This document shows positions 55,049 to 64,000 of a stretch of 64,000 bases of DNA, one piece after another. The stretch is from Bacteroidota bacterium. Lineage in GTDB: Bacteria > Bacteroidota > Bacteroidia > Bacteroidales > Prolixibacteraceae. The position numbers and the translations under genes are program-made. Positions within the stretch are counted from its first letter, which is position 1. Each line of letters begins with the position of its first letter. The stretch spans positions 1 to 64,000 of the forward strand of contig JAJUGZ010000008.1 in assembly GCA_029265715.1 (NCBI GenBank), read 5' to 3'. Under the pieces are notes generated by a model. That model worked only from the letters and a program-made list of their open reading frames with translations, did no database searches and had not been told where the DNA came from.

Positions 55049-57376
55049 ATGAAAACAATTTTATTGACATTCAGAAAACTAAAAAAGAACAAAACTGCGG
55101 CTTCGCTGGGAATTGCCGGGCTGGTGGTTGGATTGGTGTGTGTGGTTTACATCTTCTTTTGGGTAAACGATGAAGCAAGTTACGACCGCTTTCATACAAA
55201 CATCGACCGTATTTTTGTGGTTCATGCTTATCTCGAAGGGGGGACTAAAAAAATAGATTTCAGGGGCTGTCCGCCTGCAGTGGCCCCAGCCCTGAAAGAT
55301 GAATACCCCGAAGTGGAAAATACCTGCCGTTACCTGCCTGGCGAATATTTCGAGCATCTTGTTTCCTTCGGCGACAAAAAAAGTATCCTTAAAACGGCTT
55401 ATGCCGATGTTTCGTTGTTCGACATTTTCTCGTTCCCGTTTGTATATGGGAACAAGGGCAATCCCGACGATCCGAACCAGATTATTCTTACACAAACCGT
55501 TGCCGCAAGGTATTTTGGCGACACAGATCCCGTTGGGAAGATTGTACGTTTCAACAATACGACCAATCTGACAGTTGCCGGCGTGGTTAAAGATATTCCG
55601 CATAACTCGTCTATCCAATTCGATGCCGTAGTGCCCCTTCAAAATCTTGTTGCACTATGGGGCCGCAACGATATATTAACTACTTGGTATAACAATGCCT
55701 TTACCACTTTTGGGTTGTTGAAATCGCCTGCCGGGTTCGACAAAATTGCTTCGACTATCACACGACGCATACAAAAAGAGATGCCCGAATCGACCAACTT
55801 TCTGAGGGCTTATCAATTTAAAAACGGGTATTTATATGAACAGAATAACATTCGTAATGTAAAAATATTCAGTCTGATTGGGTTAATGGTTTTGCTTGCG
55901 GCAACCCTTAATTTCATCAACCTTACCACAGCCCGGTCGACCAAACAGGCCAAAGAAACAGGGCTCCGGAAATCGATTGGGGCAACACGCGGCAACATTA
56001 TCAAGCTCATTTATTCCGATGTGGCTATTATATGTCTGCTCGCATTTGGCGCCGCATTGCTGATTGCTATAGCAGGGCTGCCGTTTTTCAATAACCTGAT
56101 TGGGAAACAAATAGGTCTTTCATCGTTATTCTCGGTAGCCCCCCTCGGTATTTTTATTCTGATTTATCTGTGCACTGTGTTGCTGGCCGGAAGTTATCCT
56201 GCTTTTTTCCTCTCGTCGTTTTCGGTAAGTGAGACGTTAAGATCAGGTTTCCACTCGGTAAAAAATAAAGGGGTCCTGCGAAACTCGCTGGTAATAACCA
56301 TTTTTGTAGTTTCTATCATTTTGTTTACATCAACACTAATTATTACCAAACAAACCTTGTTTCTTCAAAAAATGGACATCGGGTTCAACAAGGAACAATT
56401 GATCTATATAACCCTTGAAGGCAAACTCAAAGAGAGAGTTAAAACACTAAAAGAGGAAATTAAACGCTCGCCCGAGGTCACTTCGGCCACTGCAACCTCA
56501 TTTCTGCCTGTTGTGGTTGGGAACAATGGCGAAGGATGGGAATGGGAAGGGAAAGACCCGAACTTTAAACCGTTGGTCACCGACTGGGGAACCGATGAAG
56601 ACATGGTAAAAACGCTTGAAGCCAGACTAATCGAAGGCAACTACTTTAGCAACGACCGTCAGGGAATTGTGATCAACAAAGCATTTGCCGAGGTAATTGG
56701 CTGGGACAGCTTTGTAGGGAAAACACTAAGTGCGTATGGGCAAAGCCATCAGATTGTCGGGGTAATCGACAACATTCAATACAACTCACTTTCGGAAACG
56801 TGCCGCCCAATGGTCATTCAGCAGGTAGGTGACTGGGCAACACGTTATCTGATCATAAGGGTAAATACCAATCAATTCGACAAAACCATAAAAAGCATCA
56901 GCAAAATATGTGAAACAATAGAACCCGATTTCCCGGTTCAATACGGATTTGTTAACGATGAATTTGCAAAGCTGACTAAAGCAGAAGCCAACCTGAAAAA
57001 GCTGGTCAGTATTTTTTCAGTGTTTGCCCTGATCGTTTTGTGTTTGGGTTTACTGGGGGTGGTTATGTTCCTCACCGAGCAGAAAACCAAGGAGATTGGT
57101 GTTCGTAAATGCCTGGGCGAAAACGTGTCGTCGATCGTTGTGAAACTGATAAAACCCTTTGTGGTTTCCGGATTGGTTGCCAGCGCCATTGCCATTCCGG
57201 CCACATGGTACCTTATGAACCGCTGGCTACAAAATTACACCAACCGTATTGACCTTGATGGATGGATTTTCCTTTTTTCCATAGTTATTTCTATTGCCAT
57301 TGCCGTGGCGACCGTAAGCTGGCAAAGCTGGAGGGCGGCCACCAGAAACCCGGTAGAAGCGCTGAAGTATGAATAG
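55049..57376 (+). CDS. FtsX/MacB-type ABC permease, fourth of four
   Basis: A 775-residue paralogue with the same layout: first helix about 19-40, a periplasmic domain to about 270, three helices (about 275-395), second helix about 413-435, a second periplasmic domain and three final helices. The motif EQKTKEIGVRKCLGE precedes the final helices and the tail is SWRAATRNPVEALKYE. It is the last intact permease of the array, and the right copy of the 121-base repeat starts 34 bases after its stop. Confidence 0.9.
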   Translation: MKTILLTFRKLKKNKTAASLGIAGLVVGLVCVVYIFFWVNDEASYDRFHTNIDRIFVVHAYLEGGTKKIDFRGCPPAVAPALKDEYPEVENTCRYLPGEYFEHLVSFGDKKSILKTAYADVSLFDIFSFPFVYGNKGNPDDPNQIILTQTVAARYFGDTDPVGKIVRFNNTTNLTVAGVVKDIPHNSSIQFDAVVPLQNLVALWGRNDILTTWYNNAFTTFGLLKSPAGFDKIASTITRRIQKEMPESTNFLRAYQFKNGYLYEQNNIRNVKIFSLIGLMVLLAATLNFINLTTARSTKQAKETGLRKSIGATRGNIIKLIYSDVAIICLLAFGAALLIAIAGLPFFNNLIGKQIGLSSLFSVAPLGIFILIYLCTVLLAGSYPAFFLSSFSVSETLRSGFHSVKNKGVLRNSLVITIFVVSIILFTSTLIITKQTLFLQKMDIGFNKEQLIYITLEGKLKERVKTLKEEIKRSPEVTSATATSFLPVVVGNNGEGWEWEGKDPNFKPLVTDWGTDEDMVKTLEARLIEGNYFSNDRQGIVINKAFAEVIGWDSFVGKTLSAYGQSHQIVGVIDNIQYNSLSETCRPMVIQQVGDWATRYLIIRVNTNQFDKTIKSISKICETIEPDFPVQYGFVNDEFAKLTKAEANLKKLVSIFSVFALIVLCLGLLGVVMFLTEQKTKEIGVRKCLGENVSSIVVKLIKPFVVSGLVASAIAIPATWYLMNRWLQNYTNRIDLDGWIFLFSIVISIAIAVATVSWQSWRAATRNPVEALKYE

Positions 57377-57661: not shown

Positions 57662-58482
57662 ATGAACCTGATAAGACTTGGGCCCGTTATTTTGAGCCTG
57701 GCTTGTACCGGCTTGGCTTACCCGCAAAACAACCAGATGGTAAAAGATGAAAATCAACCCGAAAAAATACGCACTTACGCCACGAAACGCTTAGTAACCG
57801 CCAAACCGGTTATTGATGGAAAACTTGACGATGCCTGCTGGGAAACCGGCGAATGGGCCGGCAATTTTGTACAGTGGATACCGAAAGAAGGGGCAGCCCC
57901 CTTCCCGGAATAACTTACCGGCCAATTAATACATTGAAATTTACAGCGGGAGCTGATTATTCTGAAAACAGGGATGAACTGCAATATGTCAGGGGCACCC
58001 TGGTTGATGGGCAGCCGCGCTATTTGTTAGGCCGTATCGACCAGAAAACGCTGGGGGCCACTTTCAGGATCGATTATAATATTACCCCTGAATTATCGCT
58101 CCAGTACTATGGGAGCCCGTTTGCCTCGGTTGGGCGTTATTCCGGGTTTAAATCTGTTGCTGCTCCAAAGGCTGATCATTACAGCGACCGGTTCGAATTG
58201 TCTGGTGCCGAAAGGGTAGGAGGCCGGATTGTGTTGACTGAACCATCCGGACAATCTTATGAGATCGGGAACCCCGACTTTCAGTTTTCGCAGTTCCGGT
58301 CGAACATGGTATTTCGCTGGGAATATAAGCCTGGCTCACAGTTGTTCCTGGTCTGGTCGAACGAGCGGACCGGCTTCGAAAATGTCTCCGGATCACATTT
58401 ACACGATGCTTTTTCCGGGTTGCGAAAAGTATTTCCCAATAATTTGTTCCTGATAAAACTGAATTACTGGTTCTCCCTGTAA
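57662..58482 (+). pseudogene. DUF5916-family protein with internal deletion
   Basis: Two parts of one gene lie in different frames. The first (57662-57913) has a signal peptide and the start of a CBM9-like domain, with KPVIDGKLDDACWETGEWAG. The second (from about 57904 to 58482) is the outer-membrane-barrel-like C-terminus, with SENRDELQYV, YLLGRIDQKTLGATFRIDYN, NPDFQFSQFRSNMVFRWEY and an end in LIKLNYWFSL. DUF5916 proteins usually have 700-900 residues; about 275 codons remain. The junction is near 57895-57910 and causes a frame change with an early stop. The gene is therefore dead unless the short N-terminal piece has a role. Confidence 0.85.
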
Positions 58483-58639: not shown

Positions 58640-59338
58640 ATGATAAAGTTATCCAACATCGACCGTTACTATCAAAGTAAATTTCAGCGTTCGTTTGTCC
58701 TCAAAGCCGTGAATCTTGAAATTCAACAAGGAGAATTTGTAAGCATCATGGGCCCCAGCGGGGCCGGGAAATCAACCCTGCTGAACATTATCGGGTTGCT
58801 TGATGAACCTTCGGCCGGAACGTATACTTTTCTGGGCAATGATATGCTGAGCCTGACGGAGAAGAAGAAAATTGAATATCACCGCAATGCGATCGGGTTT
58901 ATCTTCCAGGCTTTTCACCTGATTGAAGAACTGACCGTGTATGAAAATATTGAAACCCCGCTCGTTTATAAAGGTGTAAAGTCGAAAGAACGGAAAGCCA
59001 TGGTCGCCGACCTTCTGGACCAGTTTAATATGGTGGCAAAGAAAGACCTGTTCCCAAGTCAGCTTTCGGGCGGGCAACAACAACTGGTGGCCATTGCCCG
59101 TGCCATTATTGGGAAACCCATGTTGCTGCTGGCCGACGAGCCTACCGGGAACCTTCATTCCGATCAGGGGAAACAAATCATGGAACTGCTGTCGGGGCTC
59201 AATAAAGAAGGAATGACAATCATTCAGGTCACGCATTCCGAGACCAATGCGATGTACGGGAACCGTGTCATCCGGTTGGTTGACGGAATTATTCGTGAAG
59301 AAAACGTACAGCCGGCATTTTTTATCCAGCCCAATTAG
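58640..59338 (+). CDS. ABC transporter ATPase (MacB/LolD type), without adjacent permease
   Basis: A 232-residue ATPase with Walker A GPSGAGKST (38-46), signature LSGGQQQLV (142-150) with Leu149 where most relatives have Arg, and Walker B ADEPTGNLHS (165-174), where His replaces the usual D-loop Asp. The NLHS variant is seen in a Bacteroidota branch of MacB-type ATPases. No permease follows; the nearest are the array upstream, whose distal end is damaged. It may serve those permeases or have lost its own partner. The hairpin at 59372-59404 follows. Confidence 0.9.
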   Translation: MIKLSNIDRYYQSKFQRSFVLKAVNLEIQQGEFVSIMGPSGAGKSTLLNIIGLLDEPSAGTYTFLGNDMLSLTEKKKIEYHRNAIGFIFQAFHLIEELTVYENIETPLVYKGVKSKERKAMVADLLDQFNMVAKKDLFPSQLSGGQQQLVAIARAIIGKPMLLLADEPTGNLHSDQGKQIMELLSGLNKEGMTIIQVTHSETNAMYGNRVIRLVDGIIREENVQPAFFIQPN

Positions 59339-59371
59339 ACTGCTGACTTTAAATTTTCTGAACCAGGAAAA

Positions 59372-59404
59372 GGGGCTATCCTTAATACACGGAAGGATAG
59401 CCCC
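59372..59404. terminator. Terminator between the second ATPase and the PspC gene
   Basis: A perfect twelve-base stem (59372-59383 with 59393-59404) with a nine-base loop. The T-run is on the minus-strand side (TTTTCC), so it mainly ends the minus-strand PspC transcript; it can also block read-through from the ATPase gene. Confidence 0.75.
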
Positions 59405-59431
59405 ATTCTGCAAATAAGCATTGTGTGTTTT

Positions 59432-61030
59432 TTATTTCTTCAGGGCCAGGCCGTCGGGGGTCATTGTCCAAGTTTTACCGACCATGTCGCCATCCCACAT
59501 ATTTTCAACGTTTTCAATATCGTAGATGATATCGCTCATTTGCTCGTCGAGATAAACCGACTTGCCTTCCGGAACTTTCAGGATCAGCGAAATTTCCTGG
59601 TCCCGCCACTTACCTTCCTCCTTCAGCGTGTAATACGGGTCGAACACCAGGCTCGAGTCTTTCTGACTGAAGTTATAAACGATCTTTTCGATATTTTCCT
59701 GGGCATCGGCCATCGTTTTCCCGCGTGCTTTCTTGCGGGTAATCAGAGTAAATTCGGTTCCGTTGGCTTTTTCAATAGTTAAACGCGGGTGACCCAGCAG
59801 AATTTCCTTCCCGTCGACCGAGATAAGTTTCATGTTGTTCAGATCGACCGACTCTTCGCGGTACTGGTCATAGGGATTATCGGCCATCTTCAGGTAAATG
59901 GTCTTGCAGGTTTCGCAGGCCACCGGCACCGAACTGGTCGTGGTGGTCCGTTTACTAAAGTTACCGACCTGTCCGACGCTCACCGTGATCAGCACGATCA
60001 GGGCTACCAGCCACAAGCCGAATGCTCCCAGCCCGATCATCCGGTTGTTGGTCTTATACCGGAAAACCAGTTTGGTCCCGATAAACAGCACGGCCAGGAT
60101 CGGGATACCGACCAGAAAGGCGATACAGAACAAGGCGGTAGTCAGGGCGCCCGAGTGTACAAAGTGCCCCAGGAAGCCTGGCATATGGAACTCGTTGTTA
60201 ATTCCCCAGAAGAATGGCCCGCCACTCATCACGGAATGGCCGACAATCATCGAGGCAATAAAGCTGATCAGGGCAACAAACCCGCCAATAATCAGAGCAG
60301 CTCCGAACAGCAGGACCACAATCCGTAAGAAGACTTTCAGGGCATCACCCACAAAATCGGCAAAACGCGACATCCGGGACTGATTTTTTTCAGAACCCGG
60401 CGAACTGACAAACTTGTTGTAGCTTTCGCCCAGGTCTTTCATCTCTTCGCGAATCGATTTCTGGATGTTCGATACCGTGGCCTCCTCTCCTCTCATTTCT
60501 AAGCGTTGGGCCGTAGTCCGGGCTTTGGGCACGGCAATCCAGAGAACTAAGTAAATCAGGAAGGAGGTTCCGGCCCCCAGAAAGAATACCAGAACAAAGA
60601 TGACCCGCAAAATTACCGGGTCGATATTGAAATAAGCGCCCATCCCCGAACAAACGCCACCGATAACCCGGTTATCCGGATCACGGTACAGCCGGCGCCG
60701 TACTTTACCTGCGGTTGTCCCGACCGGCTCTTCTCTGACTGAACGGCCTTCGTCCTGTTCCTCTCCGGCTTCCATAAAATCTTCGGGTTTCCCCATTCGG
60801 GCTATCACCTCATCAACCCAGGGATCGATGATCACATCTTTCCCATCTGACATTTTTTCTAAAAACAACTCGGCGATCCGGCTTTCAATATCCTGCAAAA
60901 TTTCCGGGCCTTCAGGCATCGGGCCAAAATGCCGGTTCAGCATTTGCAAGTAGCCTTTCAGTTTTTCGTATGCATCTTCGTCGATGTGAAAAACACTGCC
61001 GCTTATATTGATGGTGAATGTCTTTTTCAT
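59432..61030 (-). CDS. PspC-domain membrane protein
   Basis: A 532-residue protein. Residues 1-90 form a soluble region starting MKKTFTINISGSVFHID, common in Bacteroidota PspC proteins. The PspC domain is at about 112-172, with RDPDNRVIGGVCSGMGAYF and a first helix. Further helices lie at about 235-268, 300-330 and 345-367. The last 150 residues are likely outside the membrane. PspC proteins take part in envelope stress responses, but no PspA or PspB is near. It is the last gene of a three-gene unit with padR and a secreted protein. Confidence 0.88.
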   Translation of the reverse strand: MKKTFTINISGSVFHIDEDAYEKLKGYLQMLNRHFGPMPEGPEILQDIESRIAELFLEKMSDGKDVIIDPWVDEVIARMGKPEDFMEAGEEQDEGRSVREEPVGTTAGKVRRRLYRDPDNRVIGGVCSGMGAYFNIDPVILRVIFVLVFFLGAGTSFLIYLVLWIAVPKARTTAQRLEMRGEEATVSNIQKSIREEMKDLGESYNKFVSSPGSEKNQSRMSRFADFVGDALKVFLRIVVLLFGAALIIGGFVALISFIASMIVGHSVMSGGPFFWGINNEFHMPGFLGHFVHSGALTTALFCIAFLVGIPILAVLFIGTKLVFRYKTNNRMIGLGAFGLWLVALIVLITVSVGQVGNFSKRTTTTSSVPVACETCKTIYLKMADNPYDQYREESVDLNNMKLISVDGKEILLGHPRLTIEKANGTEFTLITRKKARGKTMADAQENIEKIVYNFSQKDSSLVFDPYYTLKEEGKWRDQEISLILKVPEGKSVYLDEQMSDIIYDIENVENMWDGDMVGKTWTMTPDGLALKK

Positions 61031-61088
61031 TGTTTTACTGTTTTTACTGTTTTCGATTGATTCGACCTTATGTTTTCTTTTCTGATAC

Positions 61089-61424
61089 TTATTTATGCGA
61101 TTTGATCATTCTTACGGCAGTTTCCAACTCATCCCAGGCTTCGCCAAGGCCTTCCAGAAATTCTTTCCCGCTGTCGGTGAGTTCGTAGTATTTACGGGGC
61201 GGGCCCTGGGTCGATTCTTCCCAGCGATAGCCCAGCAGTCCGTCATTCTTCAGTCGGGTCAGCAGCGGGTACAGTGTTCCCTCCACTACGATCAACTTCG
61301 AGTTTCTCAACTCTTCGATGATGTCGCTCGCGTACAGGGGCTTCCCGTCCAGTACCAGCAAGATACAATATTCGAGTACCCCTTTACGCATTTGTGCTTT
61401 TGTATTTTCAACATTCAGTGCCAT
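61089..61424 (-). CDS. PadR-family transcriptional regulator
   Basis: A 111-residue winged-helix regulator of the short PadR type. The N-terminus MALNVENTKAQMRKGVLEYC and the HTH and wing, with ASDIIEELRNSKLIVVEGTL and LLTRLKNDGLLGYRWEES, are typical. The ATG at 61424 is chosen because the family domain begins there; the in-frame codons upstream overlap the previous gene. PadR proteins repress genes next to their own and respond to envelope-active or toxic compounds. It is placed between the secreted protein and the PspC genes and most probably controls this unit. Confidence 0.92.
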   Translation of the reverse strand: MALNVENTKAQMRKGVLEYCILLVLDGKPLYASDIIEELRNSKLIVVEGTLYPLLTRLKNDGLLGYRWEESTQGPPRKYYELTDSGKEFLEGLGEAWDELETAVRMIKSHK

Positions 61425-61486
61425 TTCCTTACCTTTTAATTTGTTTGCGTTCCAACTCTTAACTCCTCCGGTTTTATCCCCGGCTT

Positions 61487-61981
61487 TTACATGCCCCATA
61501 TCTTACCTTCGTGCATCCAGGCTTCTACTTCAAGCGGCTGTTCCTGCTCGGTTGAAACGACTGCTTCTTCAAAAAATGTACTATTTATCATCCAGTCTTC
61601 AATCTCCAGTTCTTCATCGGCATCTACTTTTGTTGAAATTGCTGATTCCTTTGTATTCAGGTTTTTAACCATCCAAGCCTCGATGGTCAGTTCCGGGTCG
61701 GTGGCCGGTTCTATAACCATAGCTTTGCCCTTGGCTTCAAGGCGGGCTTCGGCGGCAACCGGGTTCGTTGTATAATGCACTTCCGTTGCCGGGTTTTCCT
61801 GTTCAACCATCAGACTGGCCATTTTGCCAAAACTGCTGTTGGTCAATAGTTGCTCCCAGAAACCCTGGGCGCTTACCGTAAAGCTGATTAATACAAAACA
61901 TCCAATTGCGGCTGCAAAACGGCTCAAGTTTGTTCTGATCTGAGTTTTTGCTGTTTTCTGAACATTGTTTGTTGTTTTCAT
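61487..61981 (-). CDS. Secreted protein with three ExWM motif repeats, function unknown
   Basis: A 164-residue protein with a signal peptide (about 1-38, cleavage near SA-QG). Three octapeptides recur at regular spacing: ELTIEAWM (97-104), ELEIEDWM (124-131) and PLEVEAWM (149-156). The linkers are acidic and low in structure; there is no lipobox and no recognised domain. Tryptophan-centred motifs of this type often act as peptide ligands for a partner. It is the first gene of a unit with PadR and PspC genes, suggesting a part in envelope stress signalling. The function is unknown. Confidence 0.75.
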   Translation of the reverse strand: MKTTNNVQKTAKTQIRTNLSRFAAAIGCFVLISFTVSAQGFWEQLLTNSSFGKMASLMVEQENPATEVHYTTNPVAAEARLEAKGKAMVIEPATDPELTIEAWMVKNLNTKESAISTKVDADEELEIEDWMINSTFFEEAVVSTEQEQPLEVEAWMHEGKIWGM

Positions 61982-62124
61982 GACTTTGTCCTCCTGTTTT
62001 CTGTTTATTTGTTTTCGTGTTTCTTTTTGTTTTCTGTTCTTAAGACGCTCAACTTTTAGTTTGGTTGCATCTGTATAGAACTTTTTTTAAACTACTTCTA
62101 TTTTTTACATTGTTTTCTGCATTA

Positions 62125-62156
62125 CAAATATATATCTAAAAAATGGTTCTATGCAA
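62125..62156 (-). promoter_or_regulatory. Promoter for the secreted protein-padR-pspC unit
   Basis: On the minus strand TTG (62154-62156) and TATATTTG (62125-62132) are spaced by 21 bases, matching the Bacteroidota consensus. The ATG is at 61981, so the leader is about 135 bases long. Confidence 0.6.
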
Positions 62157-62163
62157 TACATAG
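62149..62163. promoter_or_regulatory. Dyad over the -33 box, candidate PadR operator
   Basis: CTATG-CAATA-CATAG has perfect five-base arms and covers the -33 TTG of the promoter. PadR operators often contain ATGT/ACAT-type half-sites; this dyad is similar but not identical. Autoregulation by the PadR protein is the inference. Confidence 0.4.
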
Positions 62164-62349
62164 TACTATTTTTTTAGAGATTTTAATTTATTTTTTCCAT
62201 CATTCTGATATACAAATCATTAACTAAGTAAATTTTCAGAAGAAATGGTTCCTAGATTTCGGAAGAGTGGCTTTTTGATGGGAAAAAATACCAAATGAAG
62301 CTCTTTCCTGGGTCGAGAAAAGAAAAGAAAAGAAAACATCGGATCTTTG

Positions 62350-62398
62350 AGAAAAACAAAAAAAATAGGTGAACCAGGTAGTTTTGGCTCACCTATTT
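62350..62398 (-). terminator. Terminator of the TonB-dependent receptor gene
   Basis: A 14-base stem with one mismatch (62363-62376 with 62385-62398) and an eight-base loop is followed on the minus strand by a long T-run. It lies 48 bases after the receptor stop. Confidence 0.85.
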
Positions 62399-62446
62399 GT
62401 AACCGAGCAGCAAGCCTTGAAAAAATCAAGACTTTCTATCTAAGTT

Positions 62447-64000
62447 TTAATTAAAAATGTAGCGGATCGAGAATTGCATTGAGTATGTCGACGAATAACC
62501 AATCGTCTTGGTAAAATCATCATCCAATGTATTTACGCCATTCCGAACATAGTTATAAATTGGGACAGTCGTACCACCTTGTGTCCGTTTATTGGTTTGT
62601 TTCAGAATTGCGCTTTGGGTATACGACCACTTAGCACCCCAATCGCTGTTAAGCAAATTACCAATATTCTTAATATCAAGGCCGATCTGCAATGTATTTC
62701 GCTTTCCGGCAATATTGGTAAAAATGTCCTGGGTAATTTTGAGATCGAACGAATGAGCCCATGGATAAACCAAGCCATTTCGCTCAGCATAGCGGCCTTT
62801 TCTTGTTTTCAGGTACTCATTGCTATTCACAAACGCCCAAAAATCGGCAGCTTGCTGTGATGCTGTGTACGTCTGGGTAGCTCCGTTCACATCTTTGTAG
62901 GTATAATCGGCAAATGTCAGTTCATCTTCTGCTTTGGGGACATAAATCAAATTATAAGCGCCCCCGTCGCCCAATACTGCAGAAGTATATGTATACGAAA
63001 GACGACCAGAAGGACCGCCTTCGTAAAATACAGAGACTGTGGTTGCAAAGCGTTTAAGATATTCTTTGCGGTAGCTTACCGAACCAATTACCCGATCAGG
63101 CATAACATAACTTGCATAGCTCAATTCCTGAATGTTCGCTCCATTTGTATTGTACGGAGTATACCAGGCCGATGCAATTTGGTCCCCAACGCCGTCAGTT
63201 ACATTCTTGGCTCCACTGTGGGTCCAGGCAATCATCGTCTCCAACCCGAAATCGAAATTCTTTTCCAATTTGGTGGTTACGGAGTAATAATAACCTGCTT
63301 TTGCTGCATTGGTAAGCAGGTATGCATTTTTCAGGGTTGCATCATAATAAGTCCCATACACAGGCCGGTTATCGGCATAATTAGGAATCGCTGTATAAAC
63401 GCCCGGTTTAAGGCCAACATTCGTCACAACAGCCGGCGCAATATCTTTGTTATAAATTCCTTCGATACTTCCTTTAATCCCAGCCGGAAGTTTTGCATCT
63501 AAAGCTAGCGAAGTTTTCCAGGTTTGCGGTAATTTCAGGTCTTCATCTATTAACGTTACCGACGAAATTGACGCAGTTGATGCCGTAACCCCGTTCGGAT
63601 AAATTTGATTCAACATCTCAATCCGGTCGGACGTGAATGAGGGGATTGTTTTTCCACTGGCTTTGGTAGCCGTATAGGTGGTTTGAAGCACACCGGCATC
63701 TCCGGCTTGGGCTACAATCCAAACAAACGGGATACGCCCTGTAAACAAGCCGCTACCACCACGCAATACCAGAGCCCGGTTCCCTAAAATATCATAATTG
63801 AACCCGATCCTCGGGGAAACCATGAGCTTTGTGCTCGGCAAAACAGTTGTGTCGTATTTTTTCAACAAGGTCGGATAATCATAATCGCCAGCGCTCAGGT
63901 AGGTATTGGCAACCTGTTCGTTATAGGTGTCTAAATCAGGGTACATTGGCAATTCGAAACGGATCCCTGATTGGAGTTTAAAACGTTCACTCAGAACAAC
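62447..64000 (-). CDS. TonB-dependent receptor, C-terminal part (cut by window edge)
   Basis: About 517 residues of the C-terminal barrel. The frame is open to the window edge, starting there with VVLSERFKLQSGIRFELPMY, so the start lies outside. Recognisable are PSTKLMVSPRIGFNYDILGN, LRGGSGLFTGRIPFVWI and the last strand MQFSIRYIFN, with the aromatic C-terminus needed for outer-membrane insertion. It matches the carboxypeptidase-regulatory-domain type of TonB receptor (OmpA-beta-barrel-like), which lacks a fixed substrate. No SusD partner is within the window. The plug domain is outside the window and cannot be checked. Confidence 0.85.
   Translation of the reverse strand, partial: VVLSERFKLQSGIRFELPMYPDLDTYNEQVANTYLSAGDYDYPTLLKKYDTTVLPSTKLMVSPRIGFNYDILGNRALVLRGGSGLFTGRIPFVWIVAQAGDAGVLQTTYTATKASGKTIPSFTSDRIEMLNQIYPNGVTASTASISSVTLIDEDLKLPQTWKTSLALDAKLPAGIKGSIEGIYNKDIAPAVVTNVGLKPGVYTAIPNYADNRPVYGTYYDATLKNAYLLTNAAKAGYYYSVTTKLEKNFDFGLETMIAWTHSGAKNVTDGVGDQIASAWYTPYNTNGANIQELSYASYVMPDRVIGSVSYRKEYLKRFATTVSVFYEGGPSGRLSYTYTSAVLGDGGAYNLIYVPKAEDELTFADYTYKDVNGATQTYTASQQAADFWAFVNSNEYLKTRKGRYAERNGLVYPWAHSFDLKITQDIFTNIAGKRNTLQIGLDIKNIGNLLNSDWGAKWSYTQSAILKQTNKRTQGGTTVPIYNYVRNGVNTLDDDFTKTIGYSSTYSMQFSIRYIFN

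Follow-up and report, generated by a model that had tools for sequence, protein, structure and literature searches.

What does a small secreted repeat protein do at the head of an operon whose other genes encode a PadR regulator and a PspC membrane protein? This question is raised by a locus on the minus strand near the end of the window, as we call the whole stretch of 64,000 nucleotides analysed here (contig JAJUGZ010000008.1, from a member of the Prolixibacteraceae). We read the locus as an envelope-stress operon with two inputs, the first product of which would be a disordered, acidic and multivalent secreted effector, and we put the probability of this reading at about 0.6. Two promoter-like elements are observed upstream of the repeat gene: P1, overlapped by a conserved dyad that is a predicted PadR operator, and P2, which we take to be of the type read by extracytoplasmic function (ECF) sigma factors. 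The original prediction had likewise seen a stress-sensing operon in these genes; that proposal is strengthened by the promoters, while its description of the unit as undescribed does not hold in full, as related modules are in print (PMC11237479, PMC10812688; these papers, and PMC5050560 below, are cited from the parts of their text consulted). In the literature searched, the padR-pspC core is known, and the repeat family, the double promoter and the operator are not recognised. The features lie at the following positions of the window.

61487..61981 (-): gene for the secreted ExWM-repeat protein, 164 aa, with a signal sequence at about residues 1-38 and an acidic tail with three units
61649..61702 (-): repeat unit 1 (ELTIEAWM...), E value 2.4e-5 in the whole-genome search
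61568..61621 (-): repeat unit 2 (ELEIEDWM...), E value 1.2e-5 in the same search
61490..61546 (-): repeat unit 3 (PLEVEAWM...), reaching the C-terminus, E value 3.0e-6 in the same search
61089..61424 (-): padR regulator gene, 111 aa, from the PF03551 match and relatives
59432..61030 (-): pspC gene with HAAS (just under cut-off), PspC, LiaI-LiaF-TM and Toast-rack C-terminal domains, from domain matches
62146..62165 (-): predicted PadR operator TACTATGTATTGCATAGAAC, a conserved dyad that includes the TTG of the -33 element (62154-62156)
62125..62132 (-): putative -7 element TATATTTG of the Bacteroidota-type promoter P1, from sequence and the alignment of sites
62041..62069 (-): putative promoter P2 of ECF-sigma type, TGCAAC-N16-CGTCTTA, from pattern scans

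The repeat protein and its genes

Exactly as originally predicted, the open reading frame (ORF) at 61487-61981 encodes a 164-aa protein in which ELTIEAWM, ELEIEDWM and PLEVEAWM recur at spacings of 27 and 25 residues behind a Sec-type signal sequence recognised by eye. When residues 39-164 were shuffled 100,000 times, three matches to L-x-[IV]-E-x-W-M never occurred, the maximum being one. The padR and pspC genes expected next on the same strand at distances of about 60 bp were confirmed by domain matches, the gaps being 62 bp and 58 bp. The first gap takes the PadR start at 61424 (MALNVEN...), where relatives also start, or two residues later; with a longer padR ORF, from 61499, padR and the repeat gene would share 13 bp. 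The interval first marked, 61089-62163, covers padR, the repeat gene and the promoters and leaves out pspC.

The octapeptide is present as described, but the conserved unit proved to be wider, namely ExxLx[IVL]ExWM with an aromatic residue six positions later. Among 98 distinct units, gathered by a pattern with a fixed W, preceded by E, D or Q and followed by M or L, M follows W in all 98 and E precedes it in 97; D or E stands three positions ahead of the Leu position in 96, Leu itself is found in 80, and F, W or Y follows six positions after M in 90. The spacing from unit to unit is mostly 25-27 residues. Residues 39-164 of the window's protein hold 25 D/E against 8 K/R, and the region beyond residue 45 of 72 repeat proteins has on average 24.3 D/E against 4.1 K/R. 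An AlphaFold model from a 10-sequence alignment had a mean predicted local distance difference test score (pLDDT) of 49.9, with zero residues at or above 70 and no usable fold. We read the protein as a probably disordered, acidic chain carrying several copies of one linear motif. It had no significant match in Pfam, NCBIfam, PHROGs or PDB sequences, the best sub-threshold scores being 14.1 bits in NCBIfam (cut-off 537) and an E value of 0.77 in PHROGs. The first nine residues, MKTTNNVQK, are identical in ten repeat proteins, which is unusual for a signal sequence; this set was partly collected using that peptide, and other relatives vary (MKTKNN, MKTQNN).

A known core and a predicted operator

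The PadR protein is encoded by a stand-alone PadR-like winged-helix gene and scores 70.1 bits against PF03551 (cut-off 27). The PspC protein scores 80.5 bits against PF04024 (PspC), 66.3 against PF22571 and 98.9 against PF22744, and its residues 27-85 score 26.5 bits against the HAAS domain PF22564 (cut-off 27). Relatives of padR occur in 148 of the 197 genomes of a class sample. At the 29 best padR loci of this sample outside the window's own genome, a pspC relative was present in 29 of 29, directly downstream in 27 by a distance rule, and no repeat protein was seen. The padR-pspC pair is an already known envelope-stress module that occurs beyond the order, and the repeat protein is not part of its core.

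HAAS-PadR / PspC-LiaI-LiaF-TM-Toastrack modules have been published in a survey of phage-shock-protein systems, which proposes that HAAS passes the signal to PadR (PMC11237479). They share with the window a stand-alone PadR beside a multi-domain PspC membrane protein; in contrast to the window's operon, neither a secreted repeat protein nor an operator or a second promoter is named for them in the parts of the survey consulted. The vsr1-ORF551 operon of Elizabethkingia also joins a PadR protein (112 aa) to a membrane protein with a phage-shock domain (551 aa), and mutants with a truncated PadR overexpress both genes, which was reported as evidence that PadR represses this padR-pspC-type operon (PMC10812688). 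That operon, which ties the type to drug tolerance in one genus, is described as bicistronic, without a repeat gene, and its authors found no PadR site in the parts of the report consulted.

A candidate for such a site is the dyad upstream of the repeat gene. It was found by a mismatch search, a narrow palindrome search having given few sites, and its consensus over 55 distinct sites is GTACTATGTATTGCATAGTAC. An element resembling TATATTTG stands at constant distance from it in nearly all 55; we therefore read the TTG within the dyad and this second element as what we take to be the -33 and -7 elements of a Bacteroidota promoter, so that the dyad would overlap the -33 element of P1. When up to 3 mismatches in 15 positions were allowed, the dyad was present in 26 of the 30 distinct regions upstream of repeat genes beside padR and at 17 of the 19 padR loci where no repeat gene was recognised, against shuffle means of 4.8-6.0 mismatches; among repeat genes elsewhere 16 of 36 had it. 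When L007/L114, whose padR was missed in the choice of ORFs, is classed as padR-adjacent, the counts for repeat genes become 27/31 and 15/35, one of the 15 being a 60-aa ORF in L143 that may be spurious. Among background genes the dyad occurred in 30 of 594, many of them divergent neighbours sharing the intergenic stretch (the 127-aa gene discussed below) or first genes at padR loci; the carriers L068 and L071 are neither. A 20-base pattern with at most 2 mismatches had 44 matches in ten whole genomes (22 with 0-1 mismatches) against 19 for the reversed pattern, and its sole match in the window's own genome is at this operon. At the 27 readable loci among the 29 of the class sample, the dyad was found in 21 (at most 5 mismatches in 21 positions; 19 within 3), and TAnnTTTG follows downstream in 21 of these 21.

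The dyad has the form of a site already known from Clostridioides difficile, where gel shifts placed cdPadR1 on the inverted repeat TACT(N11-12)AGTA, which lies over the regulator's own promoter (PMC5050560). TACT-N11-AGTA is present in the consensus of the 55 sites, and the window's copy, TACT-N11-AGAA, is one base off. It differs from the cdPadR1 site in that its centre hardly varies among sites (TGTNTTGCA) and contains the TTG of the putative -33 element. Placement and conservation suggest that the dyad is most likely a site bound by PadR. It could instead be bound by another regulator, or be merely an extended promoter, with PadR acting elsewhere: lying on the -33 element, it would owe part of its conservation to promoter function, and in the own genome it is no rarer than its reversed control. 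Its presence at class padR loci that have no repeat gene (21 of 27) and its likeness to the published site argue against this alternative, which we regard as quite unlikely. The dyad offers a concrete candidate PadR site well beyond this taxonomic family, given the spread of padR relatives in the class.

A near-perfect palindrome, TACTTTGTATTTCAAAGTAC, was met at L165 1501 and at L166 1501 and 2474, twice in one genome at 973 bp apart. By eye, it lies upstream of genes for a membrane protein, an 83-aa winged-helix protein (HTH_34) and a CreD-like protein, probably another autoregulated operon; we set it aside as a PadR operator because it is probably the site of another winged-helix regulator.

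P2 and the distribution of the repeat family

P2 lies between the dyad and the start codon of the repeat gene. A promoter of this form was found at 27 of the 30 repeat genes next to padR and at 15 of the remaining 36; of 644 genes of other kinds 6 had it, and these six all lie at padR loci. With L007/L114 classed as adjacent the counts for repeat genes are 28/31 and 14/35. A scan of eight genomes with the strict pattern, TGYAAC-N16-CGTCWTA, gave 31 matches against 2 for the reversed pattern. The three matches in the own genome lie at this operon, at an ECF sigma gene (L185) whose start codon is about 28 bp downstream of its P2-type promoter, and at a DUF6249 gene. The 328-aa ORF after the sigma gene may encode an anti-sigma factor; its first 150 residues had no such Pfam match. 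Promoters with AAC in the -35 element and CGTC in the -10 element, 16 bp apart and present also on the sigma gene itself, are characteristic of ECF sigma envelope-stress regulons, and P2 shares these properties. The eight scanned genomes add sigma genes, DUF6249, DUF4252, DUF2807 and ABC transporter genes as well as the repeat family, whereas the window's genome has no matches beyond the three just named. Within 700 bp of the 27 readable class-sample padR loci, P2 was found at none. Because these loci are without P2, and the 29 from which they come without the repeat protein, the repeat gene and P2 look like additions made in this lineage.

Relatives of the repeat protein were found in 32 of 61 genomes picked as relatives, the own genome included (E value up to 0.1). 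Nine GTDB contigs also had relatives, and the titles of seven of these name Draconibacterium or Prolixibacteraceae. The motif search across Bacteroidota that had been suggested, carried out with a profile of the repeat unit only (E value up to 0.001), located the unit in 95 of 140 genomes of the window's own taxonomic family and 23 of 393 of the order; in the phylum sample it was found in 1 of 392, namely the own genome, the samples being drawn evenly so that rare holders may be missed. Several paralogues are present in many genomes, and the second copy in the own genome, of 87 aa, is on a different contig. The 61 genomes yielded 72 repeat relatives; 33 of these have a padR relative no more than 1.5 kb away, where about 0.04 would be expected by chance, and 33 of the 53 padR loci in the window's taxonomic family have a repeat relative within this distance; at padR loci of other taxonomic families the number was 0 of 13. 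The remaining 39 of the 72 are away from padR. The conserved neighbourhood that was expected is supported.

It had been proposed that the octapeptide is a ligand of the extracytoplasmic domain of PspC, so that the repeat protein would act specifically as a signal or brake for the PadR-PspC sensor. The conserved adjacency would fit, and so would a topology in which the toastrack end of PspC is outside: K/R residues number 0 in loop 256-298, against 13 in loop 162-236 and 4 in loop 318-331, in a hydropathy and charge scoring of four hydrophobic segments that yields an outside toastrack if the first segment is a hairpin. The published survey, in contrast, predicts an intracellular toastrack (PMC11237479). 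Further, the distribution speaks against such a role for the repeat family, with 29 class padR-pspC loci without the protein and 39 of its 72 relatives away from padR. At six loci it is paired with a PspC of 209-213 aa, itself too short for a toastrack domain, and the slot between operator and padR, mostly filled by a repeat protein, contains another secreted protein in L155 and is empty in L154. The ligand proposal is thus unsupported, and we consider it very unlikely.

Among the solitary copies inspected, some lie beside a Cpn10-like gene and an M24 peptidase gene, and others near genes for elongation factor P, shikimate kinase, phosphofructokinase, a MacB-type permease, a GHMP kinase, or an outer-membrane efflux protein with a sigma-54-activator-type response regulator. 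A second padR operon of relatives from the window's genus adjoins a 127-aa gene (L132, L140, L156), read in L156 as the same Cpn10-like gene. Since a gene of the same size adjoins that operon, we rejected the idea that the solitary repeat genes beside the Cpn10-like gene gained the operator independently; such a gene is probably what is left, promoter included, of an operon from which padR and pspC were lost.

Other promoter classes were met at the remaining copies. A variant of the ECF-type promoter, GTAAC-N16-AGTCT, occurs at 5 of the 36 other repeat copies, including the own genome's second copy, and at 1 of 644 other genes, and a sigma-54-like pattern, TGGCAY-N5-HTGY (H being A, C or T), at 8 of 36, which come from two genomes only, and at 1 of 644; a looser sigma-54 pattern was less telling (7/36 against 10/644). 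In the own genome the strict AGTC variant has a single match, which precedes the second copy; in relatives it marks a repeat gene in two genomes and a secreted protein with another repeat in a third, and it is absent from the fifth genome. As reversed controls outnumber its matches, only its position is telling. Of 21 further ORF rows, 15 come from other taxonomic families and represent 14 genes (L041 and L048 being one gene): five have the strict sigma-54-like form, one of these five also has AGTC, one has CGTC, and eight have no strict form. Upstream of the repeat genes in L066-L071, the sigma-54-like promoters are preceded, by eye, by dyads such as GTACGAAATCGAACA, possibly sites of enhancer-binding proteins.

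In one closed genome, genes with the operator or the AGTC promoter (L164 470-1333 and L206 974-1447, both on the minus strand) encode secreted proteins with an EAxLVTKxIADxEEAK-type repeat in place of ExWM units. This use of the same promoter elements, in two slots, for a different repeat is what would be expected if such proteins were bulk secreted or surface material, for example a shield, an adhesin or a decoy for cationic peptides, made under many stresses with no specific receptor and with freely evolving repeats. The paralogues, the acidic composition and the several promoter classes also suit this explanation, but the near-invariance of the Met, the Glu and the aromatic residue in the 98 units argues for specific contact over bulk charge, and we consider the bulk explanation possible but rather unlikely. 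A wider conjecture is that the ExWM proteins form a new class of disordered, multivalent periplasmic stress effectors that gather damaged proteins or lipids through Trp-Met arrays and were recruited independently by unrelated regulators (PadR, two ECF promoter types and sigma-54); this we offer tentatively, as a still more doubtful idea. In any case, many repeat genes sit behind stress-type promoters, which points to an as yet unnamed family of secreted proteins induced by stress; at padR loci this family, unmatched in the databases searched, would provide the module with an output particular to this lineage.

Two proposed inputs and neighbouring sequences

The envelope-stress operon that we favour would work as follows. 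P1 would serve as a vegetative Bacteroidota promoter, and PadR most likely binds the dyad over its -33 element, so that the operon represses itself. The HAAS-PspC-LiaF-toastrack protein probably relays membrane damage to PadR and relieves the repression, a step that we infer from published work on the module (PMC11237479, PMC10812688). P2 is most likely read by the ECF sigma factor, as the sigma gene bears the same promoter, and extracytoplasmic stress would then be an independent switch. The composition and repeats of the secreted product suggest that it most likely binds an envelope partner or damaged material through several weak copies of the Trp-Met motif.

Several points weigh against this account. 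In the own genome the dyad has 1 match against 2 for its reversed control, and P2 has 3 matches against 1; support for both elements comes from placement and conservation, not from these small counts. The right half-site in the window is AGAA and not AGTA, the window shows, by eye, only a weak form of the second, reversed dyad copy that some loci have at -7, and 6 of the 27 class loci have no dyad within 5 mismatches. The HAAS score of 26.5 bits falls just below the cut-off. Disorder was judged from an alignment of only 10 sequences, which yields poor models for other reasons too, and multivalent binding is a reading of composition and repeats only.

As for the surroundings, three terminator-like matches were found on the minus strand of 59300-62400: one of 14 pairs at 62398-62363, upstream of the operon, and two weak ones of 5 pairs within pspC; the scan gave 7 matches on both strands of this region against 4.4 in shuffles. 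An Rfam search of 61400-62450 had no match. On the opposite strand near the operon are genes for a MacB-type FtsX permease and an ABC ATPase (55049-57376 and 58640-59338, +), and ABC transporter genes bear the ECF-type promoter in other genomes. Between them, at 57662-58482 (+), two short ORFs resemble by eye the start and the end of one gene without its middle; the start is CBM9-like and the end outer-membrane-like, as in DUF5916 proteins, and we read the pair as a decayed gene.
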